From Pseudomonadota bacterium (GTDB taxonomy: Bacteria; UBA10199; 2-02-FULL-44-16; JAAZCA01): 32,737 bases of DNA. The notes below the pieces were generated by a model that saw only the letters and a program-made list of their open reading frames with translations, was not told the origin of the DNA and did no database searches. The position numbers were made by a program, and so were the translations under genes. Positions 5,233-30,619 of the stretch are shown piece after piece. The DNA is taken from assembly GCA_016927275.1 (NCBI GenBank), contig JAFGMW010000037.1:1-32737 (forward strand), read 5' to 3'. Each line of letters starts with the position of its first letter. Position 1 is the first letter of the stretch.

Positions 5233-5256
5233 AGAGGCTGAGAAGCTGAGAGGCTT
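5233..5256. repeat. octanucleotide tandem repeat, left of the MITE-like element
   Basis: Three 8-base units, AGAGGCTG, AGAAGCTG and AGAGGCTT, in direct tandem. They end two bases before the AGGT direct repeat that borders the inverted-repeat element. A related array of opposite strand sense lies on the other side at 5445-5468. Confidence 0.6.
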
Positions 5257-5261
5257 TAGGT

Positions 5262-5427: not shown

Positions 5428-5432
5428 AGGTG

Positions 5433-13760: not shown

Positions 13761-14144
13761 ATGAAGATAGAGAGCATAAGGAGGGAGGTCGGCGACACCG
13801 ACACCACCGTGGTCATGCACAGGCATCTGGCCGGAGGTGAGCTCACCGTATCGGTGGGGCCGGAGGCTGTCGACATGACCCTGTCGGTCCCTGACGGAGG
13901 CTCGGAGGTGATCATCCACCGCGGGGCGGACGGCCTCGCGGAGGCCATGGTGAGCCGCCCGGACGGCGAGATGCGCTACTACAGGCTCGACGAGGCGCTC
14001 AATCCCCGGCCCTCGGAGTGCGGCTCCCGCGAGGACGCCGTCATGATCCGGAGCGCGGCCGCCGTGTTCGCAGGCGCGCTGGATTCCATGGAAGGCCTGG
14101 AAGGGTTCGAGAGATTCAATCCGTTTGAAGATGAGCCCGGCTGA
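13761..14144 (+). CDS. small protein of unknown function under sigma-54 control
   Basis: 127 residues, not recognised. It is acidic, rich in beta-prone segments (DTTVVMHRHLAGGELTVSV, VDMTLSVPDGGSEVIIHRG) and ends in a phenylalanine-rich acidic tail (EGFERFNPFEDEPG). A very strong ribosome-binding site (AAGGAGG) lies just upstream, and a near-perfect sigma-54 promoter lies 36-51 bases before the start, so expression should be high when an activator is engaged. The frame stays open upstream to 13578, but that part is AT-rich, lacks a ribosome-binding site and contains the promoter, so it is not counted as coding. Its last 29 bases overlap the 3' end of the convergent chorismate-binding gene. 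Confidence 0.72.
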   Translation: MKIESIRREVGDTDTTVVMHRHLAGGELTVSVGPEAVDMTLSVPDGGSEVIIHRGADGLAEAMVSRPDGEMRYYRLDEALNPRPSECGSREDAVMIRSAAAVFAGALDSMEGLEGFERFNPFEDEPG

Positions 14145-15399: not shown

Positions 15400-15535
15400 G
15401 ATTCGAGTAGACCACACGGGGCGAAGGGTAGTCAATCGCAACTTGCGGGCAGACGGGCCGCTGCGGTCTATGGCTTTACAGCCCCCGGGGTTGGTGATAA
15501 GCCAGGGTCCTCTAAAAAAATCGGGGAGGCGGAAA

Positions 15536-16792: not shown

Positions 16793-16797
16793 AGGCC

Positions 16798-16818
16798 GTG
16801 ACTGGTGACTGGTGACTG
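16798..16818. repeat. heptanucleotide repeat between gdhA and hemW
   Basis: Three perfect tandem copies of GTGACTG begin five bases after the dehydrogenase stop codon. The third copy supplies the GTG start codon of hemW at 16812. The only purine-rich ribosome-binding candidate (AGAGG, 16791-16795) lies before the array, 16 bases from that GTG. Confidence 0.85.
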
Positions 16819-18107
16819 GCGTGTTTGGAATCTATATCCACATACCGTTCTGCCTTCGCAAGTGCGACTACTGCGACTTCTATTCCGAGCCGATCGGCCG
16901 CGAGCCGCCTCCGCATGTTGATTACCTGAGGGCGGTGCTGGCGCAGCTCGATGCCGATGCGCCCCTCTTCGCGGGGCGACGGGTCGCAAGCGTCTATTTC
17001 GGCGGCGGCACCCCCTCGCTCATGCCGCCTGCGTTCTTCAAGTCGGTGCTGGCCGCAGTCGCGGGCCGCTTCGCTGTGGAGGACGGGGCGGAGATCAGCT
17101 GCGAGGTCAACCCGGCCACCGCGGATCTCGGCTGGTTCCGATGCGCCCGCTCCGCAGGCGTCACTCGAATTTCCATCGGAGTCCAGTCGTTCCAGGAGAG
17201 ATTGCTCAAGGGGCTGGGGCGCGCGCACACCGCCGGGGATGCTATGAGGGCGATCGCCGAGGCGCAGGACTCGGGCTTCGGCTCGGTCGGCCTCGACCTC
17301 ATGTACGGGATCCCGGGCGAGGGGGTCCCCGATCTTGAGGACGACCTGCGCGTCGCCATGACCTTTCAGCCGCAGCACGTCTCGGCATACGCGCTGACCA
17401 TCGAGGAAGGCACGCCGCTCCAAAAGCGCTTGTCGGGACTCGGGACTCGGGACTCGGGACTCGGAATCCGGGTGGCTGCCTTGCCGAGTTCCGAATCCCG
17501 AATCCCGTATCCCGAGGCCTTGCCGTGCGACGACGAGCAGCTCAGGCAGATGCGAGTCGCGGCGCGCATGCTGGGTCGGGGCGGATGGCGGCGCTACGAG
17601 ATATCCAACTTCGCACGCGAGGGCTTCGAATGCCGCCACAACCTCGATTGCTGGCGCTACGGGGAGTATCTCGGTCTCGGCGCCGGGGCCGCCTCCTTCT
17701 TTAAATCGGGATCCGGGATCCGGGATCCGGGATCCGAAAAAGATGAAGAGGGATTTCCCGGTTCCGGGTCCCGGGTTCCGGGTTACGGGTTTGCAAGACG
17801 GTGGATCCAGTCACGCGACGTGCGCGCGTACATGGCCGGCGGGGCGGAGACGGAGGCGGCCGAGGACGAGCCGATAGACAGGCGAACCGCGATGGCCGAG
17901 TACTGTTTTCTCGGGTTGAGAAAGGCGGAGGGGATATCGATCGCGGACTTCGAGGCTGCGTTCGGCGTCGAGTTCGAGAAGGCCTTCCCGTCCGCCGCTG
18001 CTCGCCTGGCGGAAGAGGGGCTGGCGGAGCGCCGCGGCGGACGCCTCCGGCTGACCGGGCGCGGCATCGAGCTCTCAAGCACCGTCTCCGAATCGTTTCT
18101 CCCGTGA
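16812..18107 (+). CDS. hemW: HemW-type radical SAM protein carrying two repeat-derived insertions
   Basis: 431 residues of the HemN/HemW family (heme chaperone-like radical SAM). The 4Fe-4S site IPFCLRKCDYCDF has C14, C18, C21; YFGGGTPSL, EVNPATAD, GVQSFQERLLKGLGRAHT and GLDLMYGIPG follow, and the C-terminal HemW domain is present (FECRHNLDCWRYGEYLGLGAGAASF). Two segments are foreign to the family: residues about 208-235, between GTPLQKR and the LPCDDEQ segment, and about 299-327, between AASFFKS and FARRWIQSR. Both are encoded by heptanucleotide arrays (17434-17517 and 17707-17791) that keep the frame. The start is GTG 16812 within another heptad array, with GTG 16821 as the alternative; the conserved protein begins at residue 5. 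Confidence 0.9.
   Translation: MTGVFGIYIHIPFCLRKCDYCDFYSEPIGREPPPHVDYLRAVLAQLDADAPLFAGRRVASVYFGGGTPSLMPPAFFKSVLAAVAGRFAVEDGAEISCEVNPATADLGWFRCARSAGVTRISIGVQSFQERLLKGLGRAHTAGDAMRAIAEAQDSGFGSVGLDLMYGIPGEGVPDLEDDLRVAMTFQPQHVSAYALTIEEGTPLQKRLSGLGTRDSGLGIRVAALPSSESRIPYPEALPCDDEQLRQMRVAARMLGRGGWRRYEISNFAREGFECRHNLDCWRYGEYLGLGAGAASFFKSGSGIRDPGSEKDEEGFPGSGSRVPGYGFARRWIQSRDVRAYMAGGAETEAAEDEPIDRRTAMAEYCFLGLRKAEGISIADFEAAFGVEFEKAFPSAAARLAEEGLAERRGGRLRLTGRGIELSSTVSESFLP
17434..17517. repeat. paired inverted heptanucleotide arrays inside hemW (first)
   Basis: Four tandem CGGGACT units (17434-17461) run into CGGAATC. After a short spacer, an opposite-strand array (17484-17517) reads CGGGATA, CGGGATT, CGGGATT on the minus strand. 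The two halves can pair as an imperfect hairpin. The segment encodes about 28 residues rich in Ser, Gly and Arg, and the hemW frame is intact across it. Confidence 0.85.
17707..17791. repeat. paired heptanucleotide arrays inside hemW (second)
   Basis: Four perfect tandem CGGGATC units (17707-17734), each junction making a GGATCC palindrome, are followed after about 30 bases by CCGGGTC, CCGGGTT, CCGGGTT and ACGGGTT (17764-17791). It encodes a Gly, Ser, Pro and Arg-rich insertion of about 28 residues in frame. The unit differs from the first hemW array in its last bases. Confidence 0.85.
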
Positions 18108-18124
18108 GAGGGCGCTCCTTTCTG

Positions 18125-18153
18125 TTGCGTTTCACCGATCGAACGCTTAATAT
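18125..18153 (+). promoter_or_regulatory. putative promoter of the beta-CASP gene
   Basis: TTGCGT (18125-18130), a 17-base spacer and TAATAT (18148-18153) lie 36 bases before the GTG start. Matches to consensus are 3 of 6 and 4 of 6, in a locally AT-rich stretch. Confidence 0.35.
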
Positions 18154-18189
18154 CTTTCGAATTGATCCCGAAGGGAGAGCCGCGGCCAC

Positions 18190-19569
18190 GTGAGACTTCA
18201 ATTCCTGGGCGCCACCCAGACGGTAACCGGTTCCAAGTTCTGCCTGACGGACGGCCACACGCACTGGCTCGTCGACTGCGGTCTCTATCAGGGCCTCAAG
18301 GAGCTGAGGCTCCGCAACTGGCAGCCGCTCGCCGTCGATCCCAAGAGAATCGACTCCATAGTCCTGACTCATGCGCACATAGACCACTCGGGGTACCTGC
18401 CGCTGATCGTGAAGAACGGGTTCTCGGGCCCGATCCTCGCGTCGGAGCCGACCGTGGAGCTGTGCAAGATACTGCTCCCCGACGCGGGCTACATACAGGA
18501 GGAAGACGCGAAATTCGCGGCAAAGCACGGCTTCTCGAAGCACCGCGACCCGCTGCCGCTGTACACCTACGACGACGCGGTCCGCTGCCTCGGCCAGCTC
18601 GAGGCGGTCCCGGACAGGGAGTGGTACGAGCTCTCCCCCGATGTGAGGATGATGCCGAGGCCCGCGGGCCACATACTCGGCTCGAGGGTGATAAACGTCT
18701 CGGTCAAAAAGGCCCATCACAAGTTCAACATCATGTTCGCCGGCGACATAGGCACCTACGACGCCCTGATCGCCGTGGACCCGGGCCCGGTCAAATCGGT
18801 CACCTACCTCGTGCTCGAGTCCACGTACGGCGATCGGCTCCACACCGAGGAGGACGTGCTCTCGCGCTTCGAGGGGATAATAAAGAGGACCGTGGAGCGG
18901 GAGGGGAAGGTCATAATACCCTCGTTCGCCGTCGGCCGCACGCAGGAGGTCCTCTACGTGCTCAAGAAGCTCGAGGAGCACGGCAGGCTGCCGGACATCC
19001 CGGTGTTCCTCAACAGCCCGCTCGCCATAGACGCCACTCAGATCTACATAAAGTACGCCAGCGAGCATAACTTCTTCGAGAACGGCTCCGAGCCGACCAG
19101 GGCGTTCAGCCCCACGAGGCTCATTCGCGTCCACGACCCCGAGGAGTCCAAGCAGCTCAATTCGCTCAGGGAACCGGCGATAATAATCTCGTCCTCCGGC
19201 ATGATGACGGGCGGCCGCATCCTCCACCACCTCAAGGCCTACCTGCCCGACCACAACTCCACGCTGGTGATCACCGGGTTTCAGGCTGCGGGCACGCGCG
19301 GCAGGGCGATACTCGACGGCGCCAAGGCGGTCAAGATCCACGGCATGCCGGTCACGATCAATGCGGAGGTGGAGTTCATGGACTCGCTCTCCGCGCACGG
19401 CGACTACAACGACATCATGCGCTGGCTGCGCGGGTTCAAGCAGCCGCCCAAGACCACGTTCCTCGTCCACGGCGAGCCGAAGGCGGCCGAGGCCCTCAAG
19501 GCGCGCATCGCAAAGGAACTCGGATGGGCCGTCACCATCCCGAAGTACCTGCAGAAGTTCGACCTCTAA
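18190..19569 (+). CDS. beta-CASP metallo-beta-lactamase-fold RNA hydrolase
   Basis: 459 residues of the MBL/beta-CASP nuclease family (RNA-processing exonucleases, CPSF73-like). All zinc-binding motifs are present: HAHIDH (H61, H63, D65, H66), the H161 of PAGHILGS, D186 in FAGDIG, and the beta-CASP motifs A (LVLESTYGDR, E210), B (FAVGRTQEVLYVLKKL and NSPLAID region) and C (LSAHGDY, H403), ending with LVHGEP (H427). It is therefore expected to be active. No extra KH domain, as found in archaeal CPSF homologues, is present. The start is GTG 18190, with AGGGAGAG about ten bases upstream; no better start is seen, and the fold begins at residue 1 (MRLQFLGATQTVTGS). It lies alone between hemW and the transpeptidase gene. 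Confidence 0.92.
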   Translation: MRLQFLGATQTVTGSKFCLTDGHTHWLVDCGLYQGLKELRLRNWQPLAVDPKRIDSIVLTHAHIDHSGYLPLIVKNGFSGPILASEPTVELCKILLPDAGYIQEEDAKFAAKHGFSKHRDPLPLYTYDDAVRCLGQLEAVPDREWYELSPDVRMMPRPAGHILGSRVINVSVKKAHHKFNIMFAGDIGTYDALIAVDPGPVKSVTYLVLESTYGDRLHTEEDVLSRFEGIIKRTVEREGKVIIPSFAVGRTQEVLYVLKKLEEHGRLPDIPVFLNSPLAIDATQIYIKYASEHNFFENGSEPTRAFSPTRLIRVHDPEESKQLNSLREPAIIISSSGMMTGGRILHHLKAYLPDHNSTLVITGFQAAGTRGRAILDGAKAVKIHGMPVTINAEVEFMDSLSAHGDYNDIMRWLRGFKQPPKTTFLVHGEPKAAEALKARIAKELGWAVTIPKYLQKFDL

Positions 19570-19650
19570 CAAACCCTTGATGAATCCCGAAAGTTTTCGT
19601 ACATCCTCCCAGCCGCGGTCGTCTTTCCGGCCGCGCACAGGGGGTGTGTG

Positions 19651-21309
19651 ATGCAGGTTGTCGCGGCAGCGCTGGTCCTCTTTCTGACCGTCCTCTCCTC
19701 GCCGTCAGCGGGCAATGCGGAGGAGGCGAAGGCGGCCCTCTCACCGGCAGCGGCAGGCATAGAGCAGCTCGTACGCTCCCGCGGCGACGAGGCCGGGGAG
19801 CCGCTCGAGTTGAGGGCCCAGCTCGAGCGCTTCTACTCCGCGAGGTCGTTCGAGCCGGCGTTCGGCTCGGAGCGCGACTCCAGGGCGCTCATCGAGGCGA
19901 TCAAGGGCGCGGGCGAGCACGGCCTCAGGCCCGAGCGGTACCACCTCAACTCCATAGAGCGGCTCGAAAGCGGGCCTGCGCGCGACGTCCTCATGACCGA
20001 CGCATTCCTCACCCTGGCCTCGCACCTCGACGCAGGCATCGAGAACCCCTACTTCTCACGGGCCAACCAGCAGAGGCCGCAATCGGGGACCGACCTCGTG
20101 GCGGCGCTCGCCGCCGCCCTGGAGAGGCGCGACGTGAAGGGCGCCCTGGAGAGGCTCGCCCCTCAGACCGAAGAGTACCGCCGCCTCATGGCGGCGATGA
20201 AGAGGGCCGATGAGATGGCGGCCTCCGAGTCATGGCCCAGAGTCCCGGAGGGGGGCGCCCGGAAGATAGAGCCGGGCAAGCGCGATCCCCGCATACCCGC
20301 GATCCGCGCGAGGCTCGCAGCGGAGGGGTTCGTGCAGGGCCCGAGCCGGTCCGCGGAGAGGAACAGGTCGGAGATAAACGGACACATGGCCGCGAGCTCC
20401 GCCGCCCTGCCAGAGGACCTCTACGACGAGGAGCTGGTGCAGGCGGTCATGAGCTTCCAGGAGAAGTACGGCCTCGGAGTGGACGGGGTGATAGGGAGGG
20501 CCACGCTGGCCAACCTCAACTACGACCCCGCGTTCCGCGCCTGCCAGGTGAGGGTCAACCTCGACAGGCTCCGGGGCCTCAGGCACGTCATCGTCACCGA
20601 CCGCTACGCCCTGGTCAACATCCCCGAGTTCTCGCTCACCATCTATGAGAACGGCGCCCCGATAAAGGAGATGAAGGTCATCGCCGGCATGGTCGACCGC
20701 AAGTCGCCGCTGATGTCGGACAACATCCGGTTCATCGTCTTCTCCCCGAAGTGGCACGTCCCGCGCTCCATCGCGGTCAAGGACAAGCTTCCCAAGATAA
20801 AGAAGGACCCCTCCTACATACGCAGGCAGGGGATGAAGGTCTACACCGTCGGCGAGACCGGGATCGAGGAGGTGGAGCCGGAGTCCATCGACTGGGAGGA
20901 GGTCGACGCCTCCAACTTCGCCTACCGGATCGTGCAGGACGCGCGCGACGACAACGCCCTCGGCAGGGTCAAGTTCATGTTCCCGAACCGCCACGACGTC
21001 TATCTGCACGACACGCCCACCAAGTCGCTGTTCAACTCCGGCACGCGCACGTTCAGCTCCGGCTGCATACGCATCTCCGACCCGATCTGGTTCGCCGAGT
21101 ACCTCCTCAGGGATACCGGCGCCTGGGACCGGGGCCGCATCGACGGCGCCATGAAGCGCGCGAGCCCGCTCGTGGTGGATTTGCCCGAGAAGATGCCGAT
21201 CCACATCCTCTACATCTCGGCGCGCGGCGACGAGAGGGGTGAGCCCGTGTTCAGGCACGACGTCTACGGGTTCGACCGCGCCCTCTCGAAGAGGCTGTGC
21301 GGTCAGTGA
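19651..21309 (+). CDS. L,D-transpeptidase, YcbB/LdtD type
   Basis: 552 residues. A signal peptide at 1 to about 23 (ending in the SAGNA region) leads into a scaffold region, then a peptidoglycan-binding-like segment (DEELVQAVMSFQEKYGLGVDGVIGRATLANLN, about 251-282) and a YkuD catalytic domain. The active-site block is complete: HDTPTKSLFNS, then FSSGCIRI with the nucleophile C472. Members of this class make 3-3 peptidoglycan cross-links or anchor outer-membrane lipoproteins to the wall, which would suit the Pal and OmpA-type lipoproteins elsewhere in the window. ATG 19651 follows a GGGGGTG ribosome-binding site; GTG 19648 is directly adjacent. The final ~35 residues (YISARGDERGE to the end) extend past the domain, as in LdtD relatives. 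Confidence 0.92.
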   Translation: MQVVAAALVLFLTVLSSPSAGNAEEAKAALSPAAAGIEQLVRSRGDEAGEPLELRAQLERFYSARSFEPAFGSERDSRALIEAIKGAGEHGLRPERYHLNSIERLESGPARDVLMTDAFLTLASHLDAGIENPYFSRANQQRPQSGTDLVAALAAALERRDVKGALERLAPQTEEYRRLMAAMKRADEMAASESWPRVPEGGARKIEPGKRDPRIPAIRARLAAEGFVQGPSRSAERNRSEINGHMAASSAALPEDLYDEELVQAVMSFQEKYGLGVDGVIGRATLANLNYDPAFRACQVRVNLDRLRGLRHVIVTDRYALVNIPEFSLTIYENGAPIKEMKVIAGMVDRKSPLMSDNIRFIVFSPKWHVPRSIAVKDKLPKIKKDPSYIRRQGMKVYTVGETGIEEVEPESIDWEEVDASNFAYRIVQDARDDNALGRVKFMFPNRHDVYLHDTPTKSLFNSGTRTFSSGCIRISDPIWFAEYLLRDTGAWDRGRIDGAMKRASPLVVDLPEKMPIHILYISARGDERGEPVFRHDVYGFDRALSKRLCGQ

Positions 21310-21343
21310 CCGGACATCTTTCCCCCTTTGCCCCGTGTCATAT

Positions 21344-21357
21344 AACAAGTGCTTGTT
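21344..21357. promoter_or_regulatory. inverted repeat upstream of the ATPase operon
   Basis: AACAAG and CTTGTT flank two central bases, about 75 bases before the first gene of the ParA/MinD operon. It overlaps a weak promoter-like TTGTTT with TAAATA 17 bases on. It could be an operator, but nothing confirms it. Confidence 0.3.
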
Positions 21358-21430
21358 TCATGGGCCGCGAAGTGGTAAATAAGGGAAAAGTTTGACGTTA
21401 ACGGCGTTCCGATGTGTGCGGGGGAGACCG

Positions 21431-22420
21431 ATGGCACAAGCAAACCGCCGTGTCCTTGCCAGGTCGCTCAAAGATATAACCGATGTGAATCCGGACCAGC
21501 TCAGGGGGGACCGCCCCAGGCCGGTGCTCGTCTCCGCGCCCGCGGCGGAGCCGGTTCCGGAGGGCGACGACGGGCGCTCCGCCTGCCAGGTGATATGCGT
21601 GGCCAGCGGCAAGGGCGGCACCGGCAAGACCGTGGTCACCACCAACCTCGCCGTGTCGCTCGTCCAGCAGGGGCTCGACGTGCTGCTGTTCGACGCGGAC
21701 CTGGGGCTGGCCAACGCCCACGTGCTGCTCGGGGTGAGCCCGCCCTACGACATCTCGCAGGTTGTCTCGGGCGAGCGCAGGCTCGACGAGGTGGTCGTGG
21801 AGTGCCACGCCGGGGTGAAGCTCATAAGCGGCGGCTCCGGGTTCTCGGACCTGGCCGAGCTCAAGGACTGGCAGGTGCGCAACATCGCCGACCAGCTCAA
21901 GGTCTACGAGGACCACGCCGACGTGATCCTCGTCGATCTCTCGGCCGGGATCAGCCCGCAGGTGATGCGCTTTCTGAACACCGCGCACGACGTGATCGTC
22001 GTGACCACCCCAGACGTCACCGCGCTGCTCGACGCCTACGCCACGGTCAAGTCCATGTCGAGGGGTAGGGCCGGCCTCGAGGTGAAGGTCGTCGTCAACC
22101 GCGCCAGGAACGAGGGGGAGGCGAGGGCGGCCTTCGAGAAGATGCAGAGCGTGGTCTCGAGGCACCTCGAGGGCGTGACCCTCAGCATGTTCGAGTGGAT
22201 ACCGTTCAACTGGTACGTGCAGAACTCGGTCAACATGCGCCAGCCGGTGGTGCTGCTCCACCCGAAGAGCTTCGTGACGAGGACCTTCAGCGACATGGCC
22301 TCGCGGCTCAAGGGCGAGAACGCCAGGTGGAAAGAGCGGGCGCGCTCGGAGCAGGCCGACAGGCACGAGGGGGGTGCGCTCTCCTTCGCCAGGAGGCTGG
22401 CGAGGATGGTCTTCAAATAG
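21431..22420 (+). CDS. MinD/FlhG-like ParA-superfamily ATPase
   Basis: 329 residues. The deviant Walker A is ASGKGGTGKT (about 58-67), followed by LLFDADLGLANAHVLLG (switch I, typical of MinD and FlhG), then VILVDLSAGISPQVMRFL (Walker B), and VVVNRARNEGEA. The C-terminal FARRLARMVFK can form a short basic amphipathic helix like the membrane-targeting sequence of MinD. The N-terminal ~55 residues are a proline- and arginine-rich extension. It is likely to dimerise on ATP and bind membrane. FlhG-type proteins set flagellar number, but no flagellar gene is in the window, so the target is unknown. ATG 21431 has GGGGGAG 5 bases upstream. First gene of a four-gene operon. Confidence 0.9.
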   Translation: MAQANRRVLARSLKDITDVNPDQLRGDRPRPVLVSAPAAEPVPEGDDGRSACQVICVASGKGGTGKTVVTTNLAVSLVQQGLDVLLFDADLGLANAHVLLGVSPPYDISQVVSGERRLDEVVVECHAGVKLISGGSGFSDLAELKDWQVRNIADQLKVYEDHADVILVDLSAGISPQVMRFLNTAHDVIVVTTPDVTALLDAYATVKSMSRGRAGLEVKVVVNRARNEGEARAAFEKMQSVVSRHLEGVTLSMFEWIPFNWYVQNSVNMRQPVVLLHPKSFVTRTFSDMASRLKGENARWKERARSEQADRHEGGALSFARRLARMVFK

Positions 22421-22426
22421 GCGGGG

Positions 22427-23104
22427 ATGAAGCTGATAAACATAAAGGGGATGACCCCCAAACAGGAGAGATCGTACCGGCTCTGCGTCGCGGGGCAGCG
22501 GATCGCCTTCGACAGGGAGGAGGCGATCGAGGCGCTGCAGGGGCAGATCGCCTCGGTGGAGCCGGAGTCGAAGGTCCTCGGCAGGGGGCTGGCGGTGCCG
22601 GAGCTCGGGCGCATAGACCTCGTCGCGGTGGACGGCGAGGGCAGGCTCCTCGCCGCCTCGGTCTGCGACGAGCTCACGCCCGAGGACGTGGCCCTGGCCA
22701 TCATGCGGTGCAAGTGGGCCACCGACAACATCGATATGCTCCAGCACATCTACTCCCGCCGCTTCAGGGCCGGCGACGCCAGGGCCTGGGTGCTGGCCCG
22801 CTCGATAGCGCCCTCGGCCGCGGCCATCACGGCCCGGATGGGGACGCCGCTTGAGATATTCACCATGGAGATGCTCGATCTGGCCGGCGATGCGTGGATG
22901 GTGCTCAGAAGGCATGCGGGCGGGGTCTCGGCCCCGGCCGCGCCGGCGGCGGAGCCGTGCGTCGCGGAGGAGGGGCCGGCCGCGGGAAGGGGCGTCGTGG
23001 GGATCAGGTCCGTGCTGACCCGCGAGGAGATCGACGACTTCTTCGCCCCGGCAGGGGACGGGGAGGAGATAACAAACAGCGGTTCCGTGTTCAGGGACCT
23101 CTAG
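22427..23104 (+). CDS. unknown protein with NucS/PD-(D/E)XK-like core, between two ATPases
   Basis: 225 residues, no certain family. Residues about 58-110 (LGRIDLVAVDGEGRLLAASVCDELTPEDVALAIMRCKWATDNIDML) follow the layout of NucS/RecB-type endonuclease cores (GxIDLLAxDxxGxxVVIELK), but the catalytic ExK strand reads SVC, so it is probably inactive and used for binding. A linker rich in Ala, Pro and Glu follows, then a short conserved-looking peptide SVLTREEIDDFFAP near 199-212 that resembles the LSQEEIDALL motif at the FliM N-terminus. It begins 6 bases after the MinD-like gene and ends 11 before the ParA gene, so it should work with them. Function unknown. Confidence 0.7.
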   Translation: MKLINIKGMTPKQERSYRLCVAGQRIAFDREEAIEALQGQIASVEPESKVLGRGLAVPELGRIDLVAVDGEGRLLAASVCDELTPEDVALAIMRCKWATDNIDMLQHIYSRRFRAGDARAWVLARSIAPSAAAITARMGTPLEIFTMEMLDLAGDAWMVLRRHAGGVSAPAAPAAEPCVAEEGPAAGRGVVGIRSVLTREEIDDFFAPAGDGEEITNSGSVFRDL

Positions 23105-23115
23105 GGGGAGGGCTC

Positions 23116-23943
23116 ATGTTCGTCATATCCGTGGCAAATCAGAAGGGCGGTTCGGGAAAGACGACCACTGCCGTCAACCTCGCGGCATGCCTCGCGATGA
23201 AGGGGTGCCGCACGCTGCTGGTGGACCTGGACCCGCAGGCGCAGGCCTCGGCCTTTCTCCGGATCGAGGACCGCAGCCCGAAGGCCACGGTCTTCGACGG
23301 CATCCTGGAGACGCGGACGCAGGGCGTGAACGCCGACGACCTCTACGTCCCCATCACGCAGAGGCTCACGCTCATGCCCTCGGAGGGGATAACCGCCGAC
23401 GACGAGGCCAGGCTCGTGGCTCAGCCCAACCGGGAGAACCGGCTCAACGATCTGCTCGCCGGCGCGAAGGGGAAATACGACTTCGTGGTCGTCGACTGCC
23501 CGCCCACGCTCGGGATGCTCACCCGCAACGCCCTCATGGCCTCGAACGCCGTGCTGCTCACGGTTGAGACGAGCTTCCTCGCGCTCCACGGCATGGGCCG
23601 CATGCTCAACCTCGTGCAGGAGGTTCGAAACCACAAGGCGCTCAGGGTCTACGCGTTGGCCACGATGTTCGACGGCCGCACCTCTTTCTCCCGCGAGGTC
23701 CTCGAGGACATGCGCGGCTTCTTCGAGGAGATGATGCTCGACACGGTGATCCGCCAGAACGTGCGCCTCAAGGAGGCAGCGAGCCACGGCGAGCCCATAT
23801 TCACCTACTCGCGCAGCTCGCGCGGCGCCGAGGACTACAGGGCGATGACCGACGAGCTGCTCGGAAGGATCATCACCGACATAGAGGATTTCAAGAGCCT
23901 GGTGCCCGAGTACGGCCCCGACAACTCGGCCACTGACCACTGA
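23116..23943 (+). CDS. ParA/Soj-type ATPase
   Basis: 275 residues with the classic ParA layout: VANQKGGSGKTTTAVNLAA (deviant Walker A with the signature lysine, 6-24), LLVDLDPQAQAS (A' motif), VVVDCPPTLGMLTRNALMAS (Walker B) and TVETSFLALHGM. The C-terminus (AASHGEPIFTYSRSSRGAEDY) has the usual ParA ending. No ParB or parS-like gene is adjacent, so it is probably an orphan ParA that positions a cargo protein, perhaps the nuclease-like neighbour (inference). GGGGGAGGG precedes the ATG at 23116; a longer frame from 22894 overlaps the upstream gene and is rejected. The last residues (SATDH) and the TGA stop lie inside a heptanucleotide repeat. Confidence 0.93.
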   Translation: MFVISVANQKGGSGKTTTAVNLAACLAMKGCRTLLVDLDPQAQASAFLRIEDRSPKATVFDGILETRTQGVNADDLYVPITQRLTLMPSEGITADDEARLVAQPNRENRLNDLLAGAKGKYDFVVVDCPPTLGMLTRNALMASNAVLLTVETSFLALHGMGRMLNLVQEVRNHKALRVYALATMFDGRTSFSREVLEDMRGFFEEMMLDTVIRQNVRLKEAASHGEPIFTYSRSSRGAEDYRAMTDELLGRIITDIEDFKSLVPEYGPDNSATDH

Positions 23944-23978
23944 CCACAGATCACAGATCACTGATCACTGATCACTAA
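23930..23978. repeat. heptanucleotide repeat across the ParA stop codon
   Basis: Seven 7-base units: CCACTGA, CCACTGA, CCACAGA, TCACAGA, TCACTGA, TCACTGA, TCACTAA. The second unit contains the ParA stop (23941-23943). The array ends 18 bases before the next gene and leaves its GGAGGAG ribosome-binding site intact. Confidence 0.9.
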
Positions 23979-23996
23979 CAGAGGAGGAGACAGGAT

Positions 23997-24263
23997 ATGG
24001 TTCTCGAGAGGGTGACATCCAAGTTCACGCGGAGGAAGATATCGAAGTGCGGCGAGGTGCCGCTCCGGCGCAACGACGCCGCTGCGCTGAGAAAGGACCT
24101 CGACGCATGGCTCACGGACAGGACCTGCTGGAACCACGAGGACTGGACGAACCTGCTGGGTGATCTGCGCCAGAAGGGCTACAGCGACCTGATAGACACG
24201 CCCAAGGGCCAGGAGCTCATCGGGCTGTACCTCGAGAACAACAAAAAGACCGCCAGCTGCTGA
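23997..24263 (+). CDS. small charged protein at the end of the ATPase operon
   Basis: 88 residues, not recognised. Basic N-terminus (TSKFTRRKISK), then a helical, tryptophan-containing core (DLDAWLTDRTCWNHEDWTNLL) with YSDLIDTPKGQELIGLYLENNKK. No signal peptide or membrane helix. A strong GGAGGAG precedes the ATG, and it follows the ParA gene by 53 bases of mostly heptad repeat, so it is likely the fourth member of the operon. Its TGA abuts the glycogen phosphorylase stop in TGATCA. It could be a partner or regulator of one of the ATPases; that is a guess from position. Confidence 0.7.
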   Translation: MVLERVTSKFTRRKISKCGEVPLRRNDAAALRKDLDAWLTDRTCWNHEDWTNLLGDLRQKGYSDLIDTPKGQELIGLYLENNKKTASC

Positions 24264-26738
24264 TCAGTACTCCTCGGGATTCGTGCCCCAGACCTTCGAG
24301 GAGTACTCCGCCACAGTGCGATCGCTCGAGAAGCGGCCCATCCTCGCTGCGGTGAGGATGGCCCGCTTCGTCCATTCGCGCTTGTCGTTGAAGAGCTTTG
24401 CCGCCTCCCGCTGCTTCTCGGCGTAGGAGCCGAAGTCGGCGAGCACGAAGAAGCGGTCGCCCCCGCGCAGGAGCGAATCCACGATCGGCTGGAATATGCC
24501 CGGCTCGCGCCAGTTGAAGTGGTCCTCGGCGATCATCTGCACCGCCCTGCGCAGGCGCTCGTCCTTCTCGAGGCAGCTCATGGGGAAGTATCCCTGGCGC
24601 CTCTGCTGCTCTATCTCCTCCTCGGTGTAGCCGAAGACGAAGAGGTTCTCGCGGCCCACGGTCTCGGCGATCTCGATGTTCGCGCCGTCCATGGTCCCTA
24701 TGGTCAGCGCGCCGTTGAGCGCGAGCTTCATGTTGCCGGTGCCGGAGGCCTCGGTGCCCGCGGTCGATATCTGCTCGGAGAGGTCGGCGGCCGGGATGAT
24801 CCTCTCAGCCAGCGACACCGAGTAGTTCCTGAGGAAAACGACCTTGAGCACGTCCTTCGTCGCCGGGTCCAGGTTGATCGTGCCGGCCACCGAGTTTATG
24901 AGCTTTATGATGAGCTTGGCCATCCTGTAGCCCGGGGCCGCCTTGCCCGCGAAGATCACGGTCCTGGGCGTGAACTCCGCGTTCGGGTTGTCCTTGATCT
25001 CGTTGTAGAGCGCGATCGCGTGCAGGATGTTGAGCAGCTGCCTCTTGTACTCGTGTATCCTCTTTATCTGCACGTCGAACATGGAGTTCACGTCCACGTC
25101 GATCCCCATCGTGTCGCCTATGTACTGCGCCAGCGAGTTCTTGTTGGACCACTTCGCGCTCTGCCACGCCTCGGAGAACTCCTCGTCCGACGCGAAATCC
25201 TCCAGCCTCCTGAGCTCGTTGAGGTCCAGCGCCCAGCCGTCGCCGATGCGCGAATCTATCACCTCGGAGAGGATCGGGTTGGCCTTCTGCAGCCAGCGGC
25301 GCTGCGTGATTCCGTTTGTGATGTTGATGAACTTGTTGGGATAGAACTCGTTGAAGTCGGGGAAGATGCGCTCCTTCAGTATCCTCGTGTGCAGCTCCGC
25401 CACGCCGTTGACCGCGAAGCTGCCCACTATGGCCAGGTTGGCCATCCTCACCCTCTTCTCCGCGCCCTCCTCGATGATCGACATCCTGCGCAGCCTGTCC
25501 ACGTCGCCCGGGTAGACCTTGCCCACCTCGTCCATGAACCGGCGATTGATCTCGTAGACGATGTCCATGTGCCTGGGGAGCAGCGACTGCATGATGGACA
25601 CCGGCCATCTCTCGAGCGCCTCGGCCATGATGGTGTGGTTGGTGTACGCGAACGTGCGGCGCACGATGTCCCATGACAGCTCCCAGGGCATCCGCTCCTC
25701 GTCGAGCAGTATCCTCATGAGCTCCGCGATGGCTATCGACGGGTGCGTGTCGTTGAGCTGGATCGCGATCTTCTCGTGGAAGTCGGAGAGGTCCTTGTGC
25801 TGCCGCTTGTGGATCCTGATTATGTCCTGCAGCGTGGCCGAGACGAAGAAGTACTGCTGCTTGAGGCGGAGCACCTTGCCCGAGTAGTTGTCGTCGTTCG
25901 GGTAGAGGAACTTGGAGATCGCCTCCTGGCCGCTCTTGCGCCGCACCGCCTGCAGGTAGTCGCCGGTCTGGAAGAGGGTGAAGTCCACGTCCTGGGTGGA
26001 CTTGGCCTGCCACAGCCGCAGGTTGTTCACCACGTTGTTGCCGTAGCCGGGCACCGGTATGTCGTACGCGACCGCCATCACGTCGTCGGTGTCGACCCAG
26101 GTGTGTATGGTCTCGCCGGAGCGGAGATGGGCCTTCTGGACGTTGCCGCCGAATCGTATCCTGTAGGTGAGCTCGGGGCGGATCACCTCCCACGGGTTGC
26201 GGTAGGTGAGCCAGTTGTCCGGCACCTCGACCTGATAGCCGTTCTCGATCTTCTGATCGAAGATGCCGTACTCGTAGCGCAGGCCGTAGGCGTATGCGGG
26301 CAGCCTCTGCGTGGCCATGGAGTCGAGGAAGCACGCGGCGAGCCTTCCCAGGCCGCCGTTGCCGAGCCCCATGTCGTGCTCGATCTCGCGGATCTCGTCG
26401 AGCTTGTAGCCCAGGTCGTCGAGTATCTGGGCGCACTCCTCGTAGTACCGCAGGTTGTTGAGCGCGTTGCCGAGCAGGCGGCCCATGAGGTACTCGAGCG
26501 AGAGGTAGTAGACGCGCTTGGCGTCGTGCTCGCGATATTGCCGCTGCGTGCGCAGCCAGCGGCGGATCAGCCTGTCGCGGATCGACATGGCCAGCGCGTT
26601 GTAGGCGTCCTCCTTGGTGACCGTGCTCTTGTCCTTGACCAGCGACAGCTCGATGTGCTCGGCGAACTGGTTGGCCAGCGAGTAGGTGTCCGCGGTCTTG
26701 TGGTCCGTGAAGAAGACTGTGTAGTCCGGTTTGCTCAT
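24264..26738 (-). CDS. glgP: glycogen/alpha-glucan phosphorylase
   Basis: Releases glucose 1-phosphate from glycogen or maltodextrins using pyridoxal phosphate. 824 residues, standard for the family. Seen: LEYLMGRLLGNALNNL and the LGNGGLGRLAACFLDSMAT signature, QLNDTHPSIAIAELMR, FTNHT-like YTNHTIMAEALE, and the PLP site EASGTGNMKLALNGA with the Schiff-base lysine K671, then GTMDGANIEI. The start ATG has no Shine-Dalgarno; a weak GTGACA with TAATCT 17 bases on ends only about 8 bases before the ATG, so a leaderless or very short leader transcript is possible. It lies 46 bases after the M32 carboxypeptidase gene and may be co-transcribed. No other glycogen gene is in the window. Confidence 0.97.
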   Translation of the reverse strand: MSKPDYTVFFTDHKTADTYSLANQFAEHIELSLVKDKSTVTKEDAYNALAMSIRDRLIRRWLRTQRQYREHDAKRVYYLSLEYLMGRLLGNALNNLRYYEECAQILDDLGYKLDEIREIEHDMGLGNGGLGRLAACFLDSMATQRLPAYAYGLRYEYGIFDQKIENGYQVEVPDNWLTYRNPWEVIRPELTYRIRFGGNVQKAHLRSGETIHTWVDTDDVMAVAYDIPVPGYGNNVVNNLRLWQAKSTQDVDFTLFQTGDYLQAVRRKSGQEAISKFLYPNDDNYSGKVLRLKQQYFFVSATLQDIIRIHKRQHKDLSDFHEKIAIQLNDTHPSIAIAELMRILLDEERMPWELSWDIVRRTFAYTNHTIMAEALERWPVSIMQSLLPRHMDIVYEINRRFMDEVGKVYPGDVDRLRRMSIIEEGAEKRVRMANLAIVGSFAVNGVAELHTRILKERIFPDFNEFYPNKFINITNGITQRRWLQKANPILSEVIDSRIGDGWALDLNELRRLEDFASDEEFSEAWQSAKWSNKNSLAQYIGDTMGIDVDVNSMFDVQIKRIHEYKRQLLNILHAIALYNEIKDNPNAEFTPRTVIFAGKAAPGYRMAKLIIKLINSVAGTINLDPATKDVLKVVFLRNYSVSLAERIIPAADLSEQISTAGTEASGTGNMKLALNGALTIGTMDGANIEIAETVGRENLFVFGYTEEEIEQQRRQGYFPMSCLEKDERLRRAVQMIAEDHFNWREPGIFQPIVDSLLRGGDRFFVLADFGSYAEKQREAAKLFNDKREWTKRAILTAARMGRFSSDRTVAEYSSKVWGTNPEEY

Positions 26739-26784
26739 GGCACGAAAGATTACAACATATGCGGGGCGCTGTCACCCCCCACGC

Positions 26785-28296
26785 TCACGCACCTCTGTCC
26801 ATGCCGTAGATCGAGCCGTACTTCGACTCTACGTAATCCAGGAAGTGCCGCTGGTCGAGCGGCTCGCCCGTGGCCCTCTCGAGGAGCTCCGAGGTCCGGT
26901 AGCGCCTGCCGTGCCGGTGGATCCTTTCCCTCAGCCAGCCGAGGATCGGCTCGAGTCTCCCGCGGGCGATCATCGCCTCGGCGCGCGGGATGTCTCGGCG
27001 CATCCGCGCCCAGAGCTGGGCCGCTGCGAGGTTGCCGATGAGGTAGGTGGGGAAGTATCCGATGAGCCCGTCGGACCAGTGCGTGTCCTGCAGCACCCCC
27101 TGCGCGTCGTCTCCGGGCGTTATGCCGAGCAGGCTCGCCATTCCCTCGTTCCAGAGCCCCGGCAGATCGTCCACCCCGATCTCGCCCGCGATGAGGTCCT
27201 TCTCGAGACCGTAACGCAGGACTATGTGGAGGTTGTAGGTGACCTCGTCCGACTCCACGCGGATCGGCGTCGACTTCACCCGGCACAGCGCCCTGTAAAA
27301 CTCCTCGGGAGATGCCTTCGCCATCTGCCTCGGGAACCGTTTGCGCAGCATCGGGACGATGAGCCTCGCGAACGGGAGGCTGCGTCCGACCACGTTCTCC
27401 CAGAACCGCGACTGCGACTCGTGGATGCCCAGCGACACCGCCTCGGCCAGCGGCGTGCCGAGATGCTTGGCCGGCAGCCCCTGCTCGTAGAGGGCGTGCC
27501 CCGATTCGTGGATCACGCCGTAGAGCGCCGCCGGGAGCCACCGCTCGTCGTATCGCGTGGTTATGCGAACGTCGGTGGGCGCGATCCCGCAGCAGAACGG
27601 GTGCACCGAGCGGTCCATGCGCGAGGCCTCGGCGTCCACCCCCAGCATCTCCATGACGTCGCGGCAGAGCGCCTCCTGCTCCCTCTCGGGGTAGCCCCTC
27701 TTGAGTATCGAGTTGTCCGGATGGTTTTTCGACGCCAGGAGCCGCTTCGCGATCGGCGCGAGCCCCTCCGCGAGCCCCCGGACGATCGGGTCGAGCTTCT
27801 CCACCGTCATGCCCGGTTCGTACTGGTCGAGCAGCGCGTCGTATGGGTGGCCCTTGTATCCCACGCACTCCGCCTCGCGCCTTATGAGGGCGACCACCTT
27901 CCTGAGCCACGGCGAGAACGCCTTGAAGTCGCGCGCCCTGCGGGCCTTGATCCAGGCCTGGTGGGCGAGCGTGGTCACGCGCGCCAGCTCCTGCACCAGC
28001 TCCCTGGGCACCTTGGCCGCCCGGGTGTGGTCGCGCAGCCACTCCCGCACGCAGACCCGCCGGTCCGGGCTGAGGCGCCCTGGCCTCCTCGCGAGCCCCT
28101 TGAGCAGCCTGCCGATCCTCTTGTCCACGATCTTGTCGTGGATCACCCCTGCGAGGGCTGCCGACTGCTCCGCCCGGGAGCCGGCCGCCTTCGGCGGCAT
28201 CATGGTCTCCTGGTCCCAGCCGAGGAGCCCGGCTGCCGAGCCGATCGCGGAGGCCTCCTTCATGTGCCGCTCTATCTCGAGGTAATCCCTGTTCAT
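26785..28296 (-). CDS. M32-family metallocarboxypeptidase
   Basis: 503 residues of the thermostable carboxypeptidase 1 (M32) family, cytoplasmic zinc or cobalt enzymes that remove C-terminal residues from peptides. Seen: WDQETMMPPKA near the N-terminus, the DxRxT signature DVRIT (242-246), the zinc site HESGH (H263, E264, H267) followed by ALYEQGLP, GIHESQSRFWENVVGRS, and the C-terminal HWSDGLIGYFPTYLIGNL (HWxxGxxGYFPTYxxGN), all family hallmarks. The ATG at 28296 fits the usual N-terminus; a start at 28332 would add 12 glycine-rich residues. It follows the OmpA-type lipoprotein gene by 64 bases that contain a heptanucleotide array. Confidence 0.96.
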   Translation of the reverse strand: MNRDYLEIERHMKEASAIGSAAGLLGWDQETMMPPKAAGSRAEQSAALAGVIHDKIVDKRIGRLLKGLARRPGRLSPDRRVCVREWLRDHTRAAKVPRELVQELARVTTLAHQAWIKARRARDFKAFSPWLRKVVALIRREAECVGYKGHPYDALLDQYEPGMTVEKLDPIVRGLAEGLAPIAKRLLASKNHPDNSILKRGYPEREQEALCRDVMEMLGVDAEASRMDRSVHPFCCGIAPTDVRITTRYDERWLPAALYGVIHESGHALYEQGLPAKHLGTPLAEAVSLGIHESQSRFWENVVGRSLPFARLIVPMLRKRFPRQMAKASPEEFYRALCRVKSTPIRVESDEVTYNLHIVLRYGLEKDLIAGEIGVDDLPGLWNEGMASLLGITPGDDAQGVLQDTHWSDGLIGYFPTYLIGNLAAAQLWARMRRDIPRAEAMIARGRLEPILGWLRERIHRHGRRYRTSELLERATGEPLDQRHFLDYVESKYGSIYGMDRGA

Positions 28297-28334
28297 CTCT
28301 TTGATCCCCCCGCCTTGGTTTCCCCCCGCCATTC

Positions 28335-28362
28335 CCGAGTCACGAGTTACGAGTCACGAGTC
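28335..28362. repeat. heptanucleotide repeat at the end of the OmpA-type lipoprotein gene
   Basis: Four 7-base units: CCGAGTC, ACGAGTT, ACGAGTC, ACGAGTC. On the minus strand the array starts at the TGA stop of the lipoprotein gene (stop codon 28363-28361) and continues toward the carboxypeptidase start. Confidence 0.85.
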
Positions 28363-28810
28363 ACGGCCTTGCCTTTATGATGTGTATCTCCACCCTGCGG
28401 TTCTTCGCCCTGTTCGCGGGGCTGTCGTTGGGCAGAAGCGGCTTCGTCCTCCCGTAGCCCACGGTCCTCATGCGGCCGGCGTCGATCCCGTTTTTGAGCA
28501 GGTAGTCGTAGACCGCCCGCGCCCGCCGCTCGGAGAGCTGCTGGTTGTAGAGGTCCGAGCCCACGATGTCGCAGTGGCCCTCGATCGACAGATCGAGCGA
28601 TCTGTTCTGTTTTGCGAGCTTTATGTCCTCGTCCAGCACCCTCTTGCCCTCGGGCTTGAGCGCTGCCCTGTCGAAGTCGAAGTGCACCGACCCGAGGGTC
28701 GTGACCTTCACGGTCTTGCCGCAGTCCTTGCATCGGGCCGCGCAGCCGGCGGCAGCTATCGCCGCCAGGGCGGCCAGCACCAATGCGCTGCACATGAGTC
28801 TCTTTGACAT
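28361..28810 (-). CDS. OmpA-family peptidoglycan-binding lipoprotein
   Basis: 149 residues. A lipoprotein signal peptide with an AAGC lipobox (acylated C23) is followed by a short CKDC-containing stretch and an OmpA C-terminal-like domain from about 42 to 145: VHFDFDRAALKPEG, IEGHCDIVGSDLYNQQLSERRARAVYDYL, GYGRTKPL and NRRVEIHI. It resembles Pal but is a second, divergent copy without the Pal-type DERG motif (DIVG here). It would tie the outer membrane to the wall. GAGGAGG lies about 8 bases before the ATG. The two cysteines after the lipidated one (C27 and C30) are unusual for the family and could form a disulphide. The last few residues border a heptad repeat. Confidence 0.9.
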   Translation of the reverse strand: MSKRLMCSALVLAALAAIAAAGCAARCKDCGKTVKVTTLGSVHFDFDRAALKPEGKRVLDEDIKLAKQNRSLDLSIEGHCDIVGSDLYNQQLSERRARAVYDYLLKNGIDAGRMRTVGYGRTKPLLPNDSPANRAKNRRVEIHIIKARP

Positions 28811-28850
28811 GACGATATCCTCCTCTTTGCCCCTTGCTAGAGCCTCGCGA

Positions 28851-28896
28851 CCCCCAAATCAAGGGCAAAAATCCCTGAATTGCCTTGATTTCGGGG
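28851..28896. repeat. inverted repeat between two divergent genes
   Basis: Arms of 14 bases (28851-28864 and 28883-28896) pair except at one position. They contain CCCC, AAATCAAGG and the complement, around an 18-base loop. It lies between the divergent starts of the OmpA-type lipoprotein and M49-like genes, so it is not a terminator; a two-sided operator or promoter structure is possible. Confidence 0.55.
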
Positions 28897-28933
28897 TTTC
28901 CCTGGTGCATCTCGCTTCAGAGCGGAGGTCGCA

Positions 28934-30580
28934 ATGAAGAGAGAGTTGCTGTGCTTTGCCGCCCTCGCGGCCCTTCTGGCCGGCCAGGCGCAGGCATCCG
29001 CGGAGGGTGACATGACAATCAAGCGACAGCTGGCGAAGTTCGCGCCCGTGAAGATCGAGGTGGAGGGGGGTCTCCTCGATGCGAGACAGAAAAAGCTTGT
29101 GGCCGAGCTGGTGAAGGCGGCGCGATTCATGGACGAGATCTTCCTGCGCCAGGTCTACTCGGGCAACGCGAAGCTCCGCGAGCGCCTCGAGGCGCGGGCC
29201 GCGAGGAGCCCCGAGATCTACGAGTACTTCCTCGTCAACTACGGCCCCTTCGACAGGTTGGACCACGACCGTCCGTTCGTGGCCGGGGTGGGAGTCAAGC
29301 CCGCGGGCGCGAACTACTATCCCGAGGACATGACGAAGAGGGAGTTCGCCTCCTGGATCAAAAAGCGCCCCGCGGACCGCGAGCCGTTCGAGAGCAACTT
29401 CACCGCCGTCAGGCGCAGCGGACAGTCGCTCGTCGCGGTGCCCTACTCCGAGGAGTACCGGGAGTTTTTGGTCCCCGCGGCCGCGAGCCTCCGAAAGGCG
29501 TCGAGGCTCGCCTCCAATGCCTCGCTGAAGAGGTATCTCGCCGGCCGGGCCGACGCGTTCTTCTCCAACGACTACTTCCCGAGCGACGTGGACTGGGTGC
29601 GCATGAAGGGCCACGACATCGAGGTGGCCATCGGCCCCTACGAGGTCTACGAGGACCGCCTCTTCGGATACAAGGCCGCCTTCGAGGCGTTCGTCACCCG
29701 CGTGGACCCGAAGGAGAGCAGGCGGCTGGCGAAGGTCGTCCGCTACCTCGACGAGCTGGAGGCGAACCTCCCCATAGAGGACCGCCACAAGGGCAGGGGC
29801 CGCAGCCTCTCCTCGCCGATCGTCGTGGCGCAGCTCATCTACTCCGCGGGCGACACCAGGGCGGGCGTGCAGACGCTGGCATTCAACCTCCCGAACGACG
29901 AGCGCGTGCGCAGGCAGGAGGGCTCGAAGAAGGTGATGCTCAAGAACGTGCAGAGGGCCAAGTACGAAAAGATCCTGCTCCCGATAGCCGGGCGCGTGAT
30001 GAGCGGCCGGGACGCGGCGGGCGTGGACTTCGAGGCGTTCTTCGCGCACACCCTCCTGCACGAGGTCTCGCACGGCATCGGCCCCGGCGAGATAGAGATC
30101 GCCGGGGAGAAGACCACTGTCAACAAGGCGCTCTCCGACCTCTACTCGCTGATCGAGGAGTGCAAGGCGGACACGCTAGGCCTCTACAACGCGATCTACC
30201 TCGCTGCAAAGGGGCTCTACCCCGAGGGGTTCATCGACTCGGTCTGGCCCACCTATCTCGCGGGGATCTTCCGCTCCGTGCGCTTCGGGATAGGCGAGGC
30301 CCACGGTGGCGCGAACGCCATGCAGTTCAACTACCTCGTGTCGAAGGGGGCGATACGGCACGACAGAAGGAGCGGTCTCTTCTCCATCGACCGCTCGAAG
30401 ATCGAATCCGCGGTCCGGGACCTCGCCTCGGAGCTCCTCGTCATCGAGGCCACCGGCGATTACGCGGCAGCGAAGAAGTTCGTGGACAGGCACCGGCGCA
30501 TGCCCGCCGAAATGAGGGCTGCGATAGCCCGGCTGTCCGACGTGCCGGTCGACATCCGTCCCCGCTACGCCTTCGACTGA
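28934..30580 (+). CDS. exported M49-like (dipeptidyl-peptidase III-related) zinc peptidase
   Basis: 548 residues with a signal peptide (1 to about 21, ending AQASA). Segments typical of the M49/MutT-associated peptidase family are present: GPYEVYEDRLFGYKAAFEAFV, AFNLPNDERVR, GSKKVMLKNVQ, then HEVSHGIGPG (H376, E377, H380) and EECKADTLGLYN (E408, E409) as the zinc ligands. The zinc motif is HExxH rather than the HExxGH of eukaryotic DPP III, as in other bacterial relatives. It should cleave short peptides in the periplasm. GGAGG lies 6 bases before the ATG. It diverges from the OmpA-type lipoprotein gene and is followed by a degenerate heptad array. Confidence 0.88.
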   Translation: MKRELLCFAALAALLAGQAQASAEGDMTIKRQLAKFAPVKIEVEGGLLDARQKKLVAELVKAARFMDEIFLRQVYSGNAKLRERLEARAARSPEIYEYFLVNYGPFDRLDHDRPFVAGVGVKPAGANYYPEDMTKREFASWIKKRPADREPFESNFTAVRRSGQSLVAVPYSEEYREFLVPAAASLRKASRLASNASLKRYLAGRADAFFSNDYFPSDVDWVRMKGHDIEVAIGPYEVYEDRLFGYKAAFEAFVTRVDPKESRRLAKVVRYLDELEANLPIEDRHKGRGRSLSSPIVVAQLIYSAGDTRAGVQTLAFNLPNDERVRRQEGSKKVMLKNVQRAKYEKILLPIAGRVMSGRDAAGVDFEAFFAHTLLHEVSHGIGPGEIEIAGEKTTVNKALSDLYSLIEECKADTLGLYNAIYLAAKGLYPEGFIDSVWPTYLAGIFRSVRFGIGEAHGGANAMQFNYLVSKGAIRHDRRSGLFSIDRSKIESAVRDLASELLVIEATGDYAAAKKFVDRHRRMPAEMRAAIARLSDVPVDIRPRYAFD

Positions 30581-30584
30581 CCTC

Positions 30585-30619
30585 CCCGACTACCGGTTCC
30601 CGGATCCCGAGTCCCGTTA
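30585..30619. repeat. degenerate heptanucleotide repeat after the M49-like gene
   Basis: Five diverged 7-base units, CCCGACT, ACCGGTT, CCCGGAT, CCCGAGT and CCCGTTA, start four bases after the stop codon. They share the CCCG core and length of the other arrays, with more substitutions. Confidence 0.65.

Follow-up and report, generated by a model that had tools for sequence, protein, structure and literature searches.

Tandem repeats with a strict period of 7 bases lie at several places between positions 16,798 and 30,619 of a 32,737-nucleotide stretch of bacterial DNA (contig JAFGMW010000037.1, lineage UBA10199; "the window" means this whole stretch). They raise the question of whether each array has grown on its own from a short seed, or whether the arrays are parts of a larger structure. 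After analysis of the genome that contains the window (G000; a fragmented draft assembly of 1.81 Mb in 119 contigs), we propose that the arrays are probably the arms of small palindromic elements, non-autonomous and scattered through the genome, that resemble repetitive extragenic palindromes (REPs) or miniature inverted-repeat transposable elements (MITEs), that these arms vary by slippage, and that selection filters which copies survive.

Period-7 arrays in the window and across the genome

Tandem Repeats Finder (TRF), used on the window with a score threshold of 30, reported period-7 arrays at 16798-16819 (GTGACTG, 3.1 copies, 100%), 17433-17464 (4.6 copies, 100%), 17491-17515, 17707-17736 (4.3 copies, 100%), 17755-17791, 23931-23976 (6.6 copies, 92%) and 28336-28365 (4.3 copies, 91%). 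Exact period-7 runs of at least 12 matches were found 4 times in the window, versus 0.01 expected under a first-order Markov model, and no run of that length was found there at periods 2-6 or 8-13. The original prediction had listed six strict loci, five of which were confirmed by TRF. The sixth, on the forward strand at 30585..30619, is a CCCGNNT-like tract (CCCGACT ACCGGTT CCCGGAT CCCGAGT CCCG) that was seen by eye and adjoins the stop of an M49-like gene (30580); because it is degenerate and absent from the TRF output at score 30, its status as a strict repeat is not confirmed.

Genome-wide counting was done at a score of at least 14 on 703 kb of stretches out of the 1.81 Mb. The arrays recovered numbered 84 at period 7 versus 0, 9, 4 and 3 at periods 5, 6, 8 and 9, respectively, so that the preference for period 7 holds for the genome and the arrays are dispersed throughout the sampled part of it, as had been anticipated. 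The original prediction thus withstands the refutation that it had set for itself. Part of the last ten stretches of the 703 kb had been selected for holding hits, and rates were therefore taken from two unbiased sets, a 41-contig sample (479 kb) and a 574-kb set. The 41-contig sample gave 38 arrays at period 7 versus 0, 6, 2 and 2 at periods 5, 6, 8 and 9, and shuffled sequences gave 0. Tandem 7-nt copies are thus far above chance, as in the heptameric simple-sequence repeats known as long simple-sequence repeats (LSSR) or short tandemly repeated repetitive sequences (STRR).

The units had been thought to be specific to each locus, a claim that did not survive the wider sample. Among the 65 arrays in the 479 kb, 35 belong to a single GTRACTN family, designated family A ((C)GTRACTN or its reverse complement NAGTYAC(G)), 10 belong to a second, G-rich class of CGGGAYT-like units, and 20 have other units. 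The window over-represents unit diversity, because hemW alone holds four arrays of the rarer CGGGAYT-like class. In the whole genome, a three-unit GTGACTN pattern with up to 2 mismatches had 348 hits, compared with 27 for the reversed control. Neighbouring units in an arm have the same free base in 76.5% of 179 pairs, compared with 46.6% expected from the pool, and the agreement exceeds that obtained by permutation within arms (p 0.001). Since neighbouring units are the most alike, growth of the arms by duplication of adjacent units is supported, in keeping with the local expansion and the homogeneity within loci that had been predicted.

Many paired arrays surround cores of fixed length

An inverted partner was found within 130 nt for 15 of the 32 arrays having three exact units. 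Such partners had already been noticed in the window, at 17434 and 17707, where they are real and form strong hairpins; what had been missed is that paired arrays are arms around cores of fixed length. When the arm-to-arm distance was analyzed in 30 paired elements, 8 had a core of 20 nt and 11 a core of 41 nt, the remainder being scattered. The 20-nt core has the sequence ACTRGCGKG...CGCYAGT. Thirteen oriented 41-nt cores, taken with two units per side, could be aligned without gaps over 69 columns with a mean column identity of 85%, and a profile searched iteratively against the 703 kb returned the same 13 cores and one partial match, all of them flanked by heptamers on both sides. Furthermore, the outer ends share a weak AAANCC border that adjoins the first heptamer on both sides, also far from genes, with C at -1 in 45/60 ends and A at -4 in 39/60. 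When a covariance model of the element was run, G000 gave 77 matches, from roughly 40 places matched on both strands; among 45 other genomes of the phylum, 9 gave weaker matches, never more than 26.

An element would therefore be laid out, as its sequence suggests, with an AAANCC-like border, n heptamers, a fixed core (20 or 41 nt), n heptamers in inverted orientation and the inverted border. Arrays that share cores and borders are more than the simple array without other common sequence that defines LSSR or STRR. A short palindromic core present in many intergenic copies is found here as in the REP elements mobilised by REP-associated tyrosine transposases (RAYT, TnpA-REP), and the inverted arms with their symmetrical AAANCC border correspond to the terminal inverted repeats of MITEs.

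Copies at gene junctions and stop codons

Gene calls came from a hexamer predictor of our own, and individual start codons may for this reason be wrong. In the 574-kb unbiased sample, 88% of which is coding, all 36 family-A clusters are intergenic, which bears out the predicted position at gene borders: 28 lie between codirectional genes, 4 between convergent and 1 between divergent genes, and 3 are at contig edges. Divergent spacers are avoided (P 0.0004 given the intergenic bases available). Among the 28 codirectional cases, 19 have an array end 1-9 nt upstream of the next start, and 17 have an array that begins at most 7 nt from the preceding stop or covers it.

A Shine-Dalgarno-like motif was found in 2/33 genes with an array at most 12 nt upstream and in 281/575 others (p 3e-7), a deficit that is partly there by construction because the array sits where the motif would be. 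As a general rule such a deficit was rejected, since the genome of a sister genus (G001) has the motif in 5/12 versus 348/911 genes. A hairpin that would bring a Shine-Dalgarno site from farther upstream close to the start codon was also considered and set aside; it occurs at some elements only and was scored without a control. The elements may plausibly affect how the downstream gene is translated.

The unit GTGACTN contains TGA and 7 is not a multiple of 3, so that, along an array, each of the three frames of that strand meets a stop. The units CGGGACT, CGGGATC and CGGGATT and their complements are stop-free in either direction. The GTRACTN class is never within genes and the CGGGAYT-like class is mostly within genes, a fit between stop content and location which suggests that selection acts on where copies survive.

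Three arrays in the window, defined from the TRF output, the sequence and the gene calls or gene context, are intergenic and have no clear partner. The first, a single arm of family A on the forward strand (GTGACTG x3.1, 16798..16819), occupies the space from the stop of a Glu/Leu dehydrogenase gene (16792) to the GTG start of hemW (16821). The second, a single forward-strand arm of CACTGAT/CCACTGA x6.6 units (23930..23976), contains the codon at which a ParA-like gene (23116-23943) stops; its end lies 20 nt ahead of an open reading frame at 23997. On the reverse strand, a single arm of CGTGACT/CGTAACT x4.3 units (28336..28365) is the source of the stop of an OmpA-like gene (28361-28810, reverse strand), with its end 3 nt upstream of where an M32 peptidase gene (26785-28332, reverse strand) starts. 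These three arrays may be solo or decayed arms. No Rfam matches and no tRNA genes were found in the window.

Copies read in frame within hemW and other genes

The gene hemW (16821..18107, forward strand), recognized by Pfam (Radical_SAM and HemN_C domains) and by alignment, hosts two coding inserts, both of them in-frame, stop-free forward-strand hairpins detected by TRF and RNA folding. Insert 1 (17431..17517; LSGLGTRDSGLGIRVAALPSSESRIPYPEALP) has a left arm of TCGGGAC x4.6 (17433-17464) and a right arm of CCGAATC-like units (17491-17514), and the RNA of 17431-17517 folds with -56.7 kcal/mol (z -6.6). Insert 2 (17703..17795) has a left arm of CGGGATC x4.3 (17707-17736) and a right arm of TTCCGGG-like units (17755-17791), and 17703-17793 folds with -52.9 kcal/mol (z -4.0). 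The frame and both Pfam domains are intact despite the inserts, which map to two variable loops of HemW in an alignment of 27 orthologues. In an AlphaFold model of the window HemW, with a mean predicted local distance difference test score (pLDDT) of 88.2, the sole segments with pLDDT below 50 are the loops encoded by the arrays, namely 209-227 (insert 1) and 298-305 and 313-321 (insert 2). The inserts are thus predicted to encode disordered loops.

The same loops are occupied in some relatives. The hemW of G001 (L071:10119-11432) carries at site 1 an unrelated palindrome of the CCCCTCCTT...AAGGAGGGG type and, in the place matching site 2, a CGGGAYT heptamer hairpin. Site 1 holds other sequences in G005 and G034, and nothing in most relatives. 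We also observed that the hemW loops of other genera (L005, L009, L025) hold unrelated repeat-like inserts, as if this were a repeatedly used landing site.

In G000, open frames run through heptamer hairpins in a uvrA-like gene (L246:454-3309) and an xseA-like gene (L255:90-1535), and arrays lie within mnmE-, miaB- and proS-like genes of G001; these names come from sequence resemblance only. In-frame insertion into coding genes, as described for the Rickettsia palindromic elements (RPE), was thus found here, twice in hemW.

Comparison with a sister genus and other lineages

The genome G001, in about 20 long contigs, shares synteny with positions 14116 to 28332 of the window. The original prediction had proposed a comparison of presence and absence at orthologous loci. 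For 103 pairs of adjacent genes that are orthologous between G000 and G001, arrays with a period of 7 or 8 are present in G000 only at 11, in G001 only at 7, in both at 3 and in neither at 82. Conserved use of junctions was therefore rejected (3/103 in common, p 0.13, not significant). Where one genome is empty and the other occupied, the gaps are often of the order of these examples: 2, 11 and -4 bp when empty versus 91, 120 and 86 bp when occupied. No array was found at the G001 orthologue of the 23930 junction.

The commonest arrays of G001 have a period of 8, with GTACGTTR arms in inverted pairs (19 of 27 clusters having at least 2 arrays). Pattern matches to GTACGTTR number 159 in G001, 6 in G033 and 0 in the other 44 genomes, including G000. 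G001 also has hairpin elements of its own that are built on different heptamers. The fixed length that had been claimed is therefore true of G000 but is not a rule across the lineage, because the hairpins of G001 also have octamer arms. Long octamer arrays, of about 13 to 16 GTACGTTR units, were seen in G001 at C6:75816-75942 and C15:67907-68009.

In another, distant family of the same class, the genome G045 has elements of the form (GACCAGT)n-GACC-TAAAGCTTTTA-GTC-(CCTGGTC)n, alternatively noted as (GACCAGT)n-GACCTAAAGCTTTTAGTC-(CCTGGTC)n; heptamer hairpins with a conserved TAAAGCTTTTA core were seen in L269-L276 of this genome. In G003, GTGACTN arrays form part of another, larger repeat. Runs of four exact GTGACTN units were also seen beyond the phylum, in more than 80 contigs of many phyla among the matches listed. 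The G000 core never accompanies these arrays among the same matches, and a partner was present in 3/105. Since the arrays outside the phylum are nearly all unpaired and lack the G000 core, the heptamer is widespread but the palindromic element is lineage-specific.

Other repeats were noted beside these. At L051:3329-3382, AAAGCTG x7 lies beside octamer-like AGAAGCTG units, as if the period had slipped between 7 and 8. In the window, a 24-bp inverted repeat pair (GGGCACCTCTAAAAACTCACTTTT ... AAAAGTGAGTTTTTAGAGGTGCCC) lies within about 168 bp (5261-5428, in the region 5233-5463) and has the look of a MITE or insertion sequence remnant; it is flanked on the outside by period-8 arrays of the AGAAGCTG type in inverted orientation. 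A different repeat, ATTTGGAATTTGGGATTTGGTGCTT, is found near the first bases of several contigs (L043, L085, L087) and may break the assembly.

Origin of the arrays

In the mechanism that we propose, copies would be placed into gene junctions by a putative mobilising mechanism, to which the family-wide cores, the symmetrical borders and the empty orthologous sites point. The arms would then lengthen or shorten in whole-unit steps through slipped-strand mispairing, as the likeness of neighbouring units suggests. Selection would confine the surviving GTRACTN copies, whose sense arm brings a stop in each of the three frames, to the spaces between genes, and would let CGGGAYT-like copies, which are stop-free, persist inside genes, where they are read in frame and become disordered loops of the protein. 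Families would differ from genus to genus in their unit, their core and even the period of their arms.

Several results weigh against this proposal. With a clear partner for only 15/32 arrays, many must be solo or decayed. No compensatory changes were found in the core or stem, whose pairs are conserved, and hence a selected RNA structure is not demonstrated. The target-site duplication of a MITE was not found above chance in 30 elements (flanking direct repeats of at least 5 in 4 of them, versus 4.05 expected). Genes of the Y1_Tnp type, scored for presence only, number 4 in G000 and are also present in most genomes of the phylum without the elements; the distribution of the Y1 transposase, considered as a candidate mobiliser, does not track them across the phylum. 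In other phyla nearly all of the arrays are unpaired, so that heptamer arrays can arise without such elements.

This last point, together with the likeness of adjacent units and the lack of target-site duplications above chance, is also what would be expected if the arrays were plain heptameric simple-sequence repeats, grown in place by slippage from chance seeds with no mobile element, the hairpins and the position at gene borders being side effects of selection against insertion into coding sequence. Many bacteria have an excess of heptamers, and slippage favouring 7 nt, linked to the footprint of the polymerase, has been put forward (cited in PMC4692102 and PMC4679880). Plain slippage leaves unexplained, however, why cores of exactly 20 or 41 nt are common to loci, why the AAANCC borders are symmetrical, why an extra single block of 80-120 bp is found at junctions that are empty in the relative, and why a sister genus has octamer elements of like design; we regard it as a minor, though real, possibility. 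The array ends 1-9 nt before starts, and adjoining or over stops, could instead mean that the arms are selected as sites of translational or mRNA control, either bound by proteins or forming intercistronic hairpins that couple or insulate genes. Consistent with this are the scarcity of Shine-Dalgarno-like motifs in genes that closely follow arrays, similar to the Shine-Dalgarno loss in Beggiatoaceae (PMC4679880), the stops that GTRACTN offers in all three frames of one direction, and a sense polarity (GTGACTN following stops and NAGTCAC ahead of starts) as in Xanthomonas (PMC4692102). Against it, the motif deficit is in part built in and is not seen in G001, the junctions are unconserved between genera, covariation is lacking, and the most economical neutral interpretation is that junctions are the only landing sites a compact genome has to offer, which makes control sites quite improbable as the explanation. 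An artefact of assembly or binning might be suspected in a draft of 119 contigs, where repeats are error-prone, but the frames are open through both hemW inserts, the element recurs at roughly 40 places in varied contexts, and the independent genome G001 has the same design and a hairpin at the matching hemW site; such an artefact is scarcely credible.

Dispersed palindromes with arms varied by slippage remain, in our opinion, the probable origin of the arrays. A broader and speculative reading, which we hold to be unlikely, is that palindromes armed with tandem repeats form a recurrent, self-renewing class in the phylum, with a unit, core and period (7 or 8) specific to each genus. Arms of a length that is not a multiple of 3 would serve as translation insulators at operon junctions, because a period not divisible by 3 gives stops in every frame from either side, and stop-free variants would enter genes.

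Comparison with known repeat systems

The GGGAATC repeats of Xanthomonas are described in PMC4692102: a genome has more than 180 of these arrays and about 70 inverted pairs, mostly in intergenic sequence, with few between divergent genes or inside genes. The arrays studied here resemble them in the period of 7, the intergenic bias, the start/stop polarity, the inverted pairs and the rarity between divergent genes or inside genes. They differ in the unit, which is mainly GTRACTN, and in having common fixed-length cores and borders, none of which is seen in the available part of that paper. Most orthologous junctions are unshared here, unlike in a comparison of two closer Xanthomonas species, which have 83% of junctions in common.

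The TAACTGA repeats of Beggiatoaceae, cyanobacteria and Bacteroidetes (PMC4679880) likewise place a few heptamers directly before starts, in the position of the Shine-Dalgarno site. In Beggiatoaceae they form 169 direct sets and one indirect repeat and replace Shine-Dalgarno sites (PMC4679880), whereas about half of the arrays here are inverted pairs around a core. STRR and long simple-sequence repeats are also short tandem heptamers present in many phyla, but those are plain tandem arrays and here the arrays are parts of a composite palindrome.

REPs, bacterial interspersed mosaic elements (BIMEs) and other MITEs are, as here, short, dispersed, palindromic and intergenic, with a family-wide core and many copies; the elements described here differ in having arms of tandem repeats in variable number, no target-site duplication and no linked transposase shown. 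RPE insert in frame into unrelated housekeeping genes (PMC10969869), as the palindromes do here, but the insert here is about 90 bp with heptamer arms, and the likeness is one of description. A tandem repeat within an inverted-repeat element also occurs in the Porphyromonas gingivalis MITE with an internal minisatellite, as far as the available part of PMC4596501 describes it. No report was found, in a partial coverage of the literature that leaves absence unproven, of heptamer arms attached to a core of constant length, nor of an octamer version.

The claim that these repeats would be a different kind of system is therefore only partly right, since border heptamers, inverted pairing, loss of the Shine-Dalgarno site and in-frame palindromes have each been published singly elsewhere (PMC4692102, PMC4679880, PMC10969869); the combination, the fixed cores and the turnover between lineages are the new details. 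Border heptamer repeats have long been reported without a mechanism, and in one lineage they are probably the arms of dispersed palindromes with fixed cores. The eight-base version in the sister genus separates two questions that had been mixed, the spread of the element and the expansion of its arm repeats. Housekeeping proteins here (HemW, UvrA-like and XseA-like) carry such inserts in frame.

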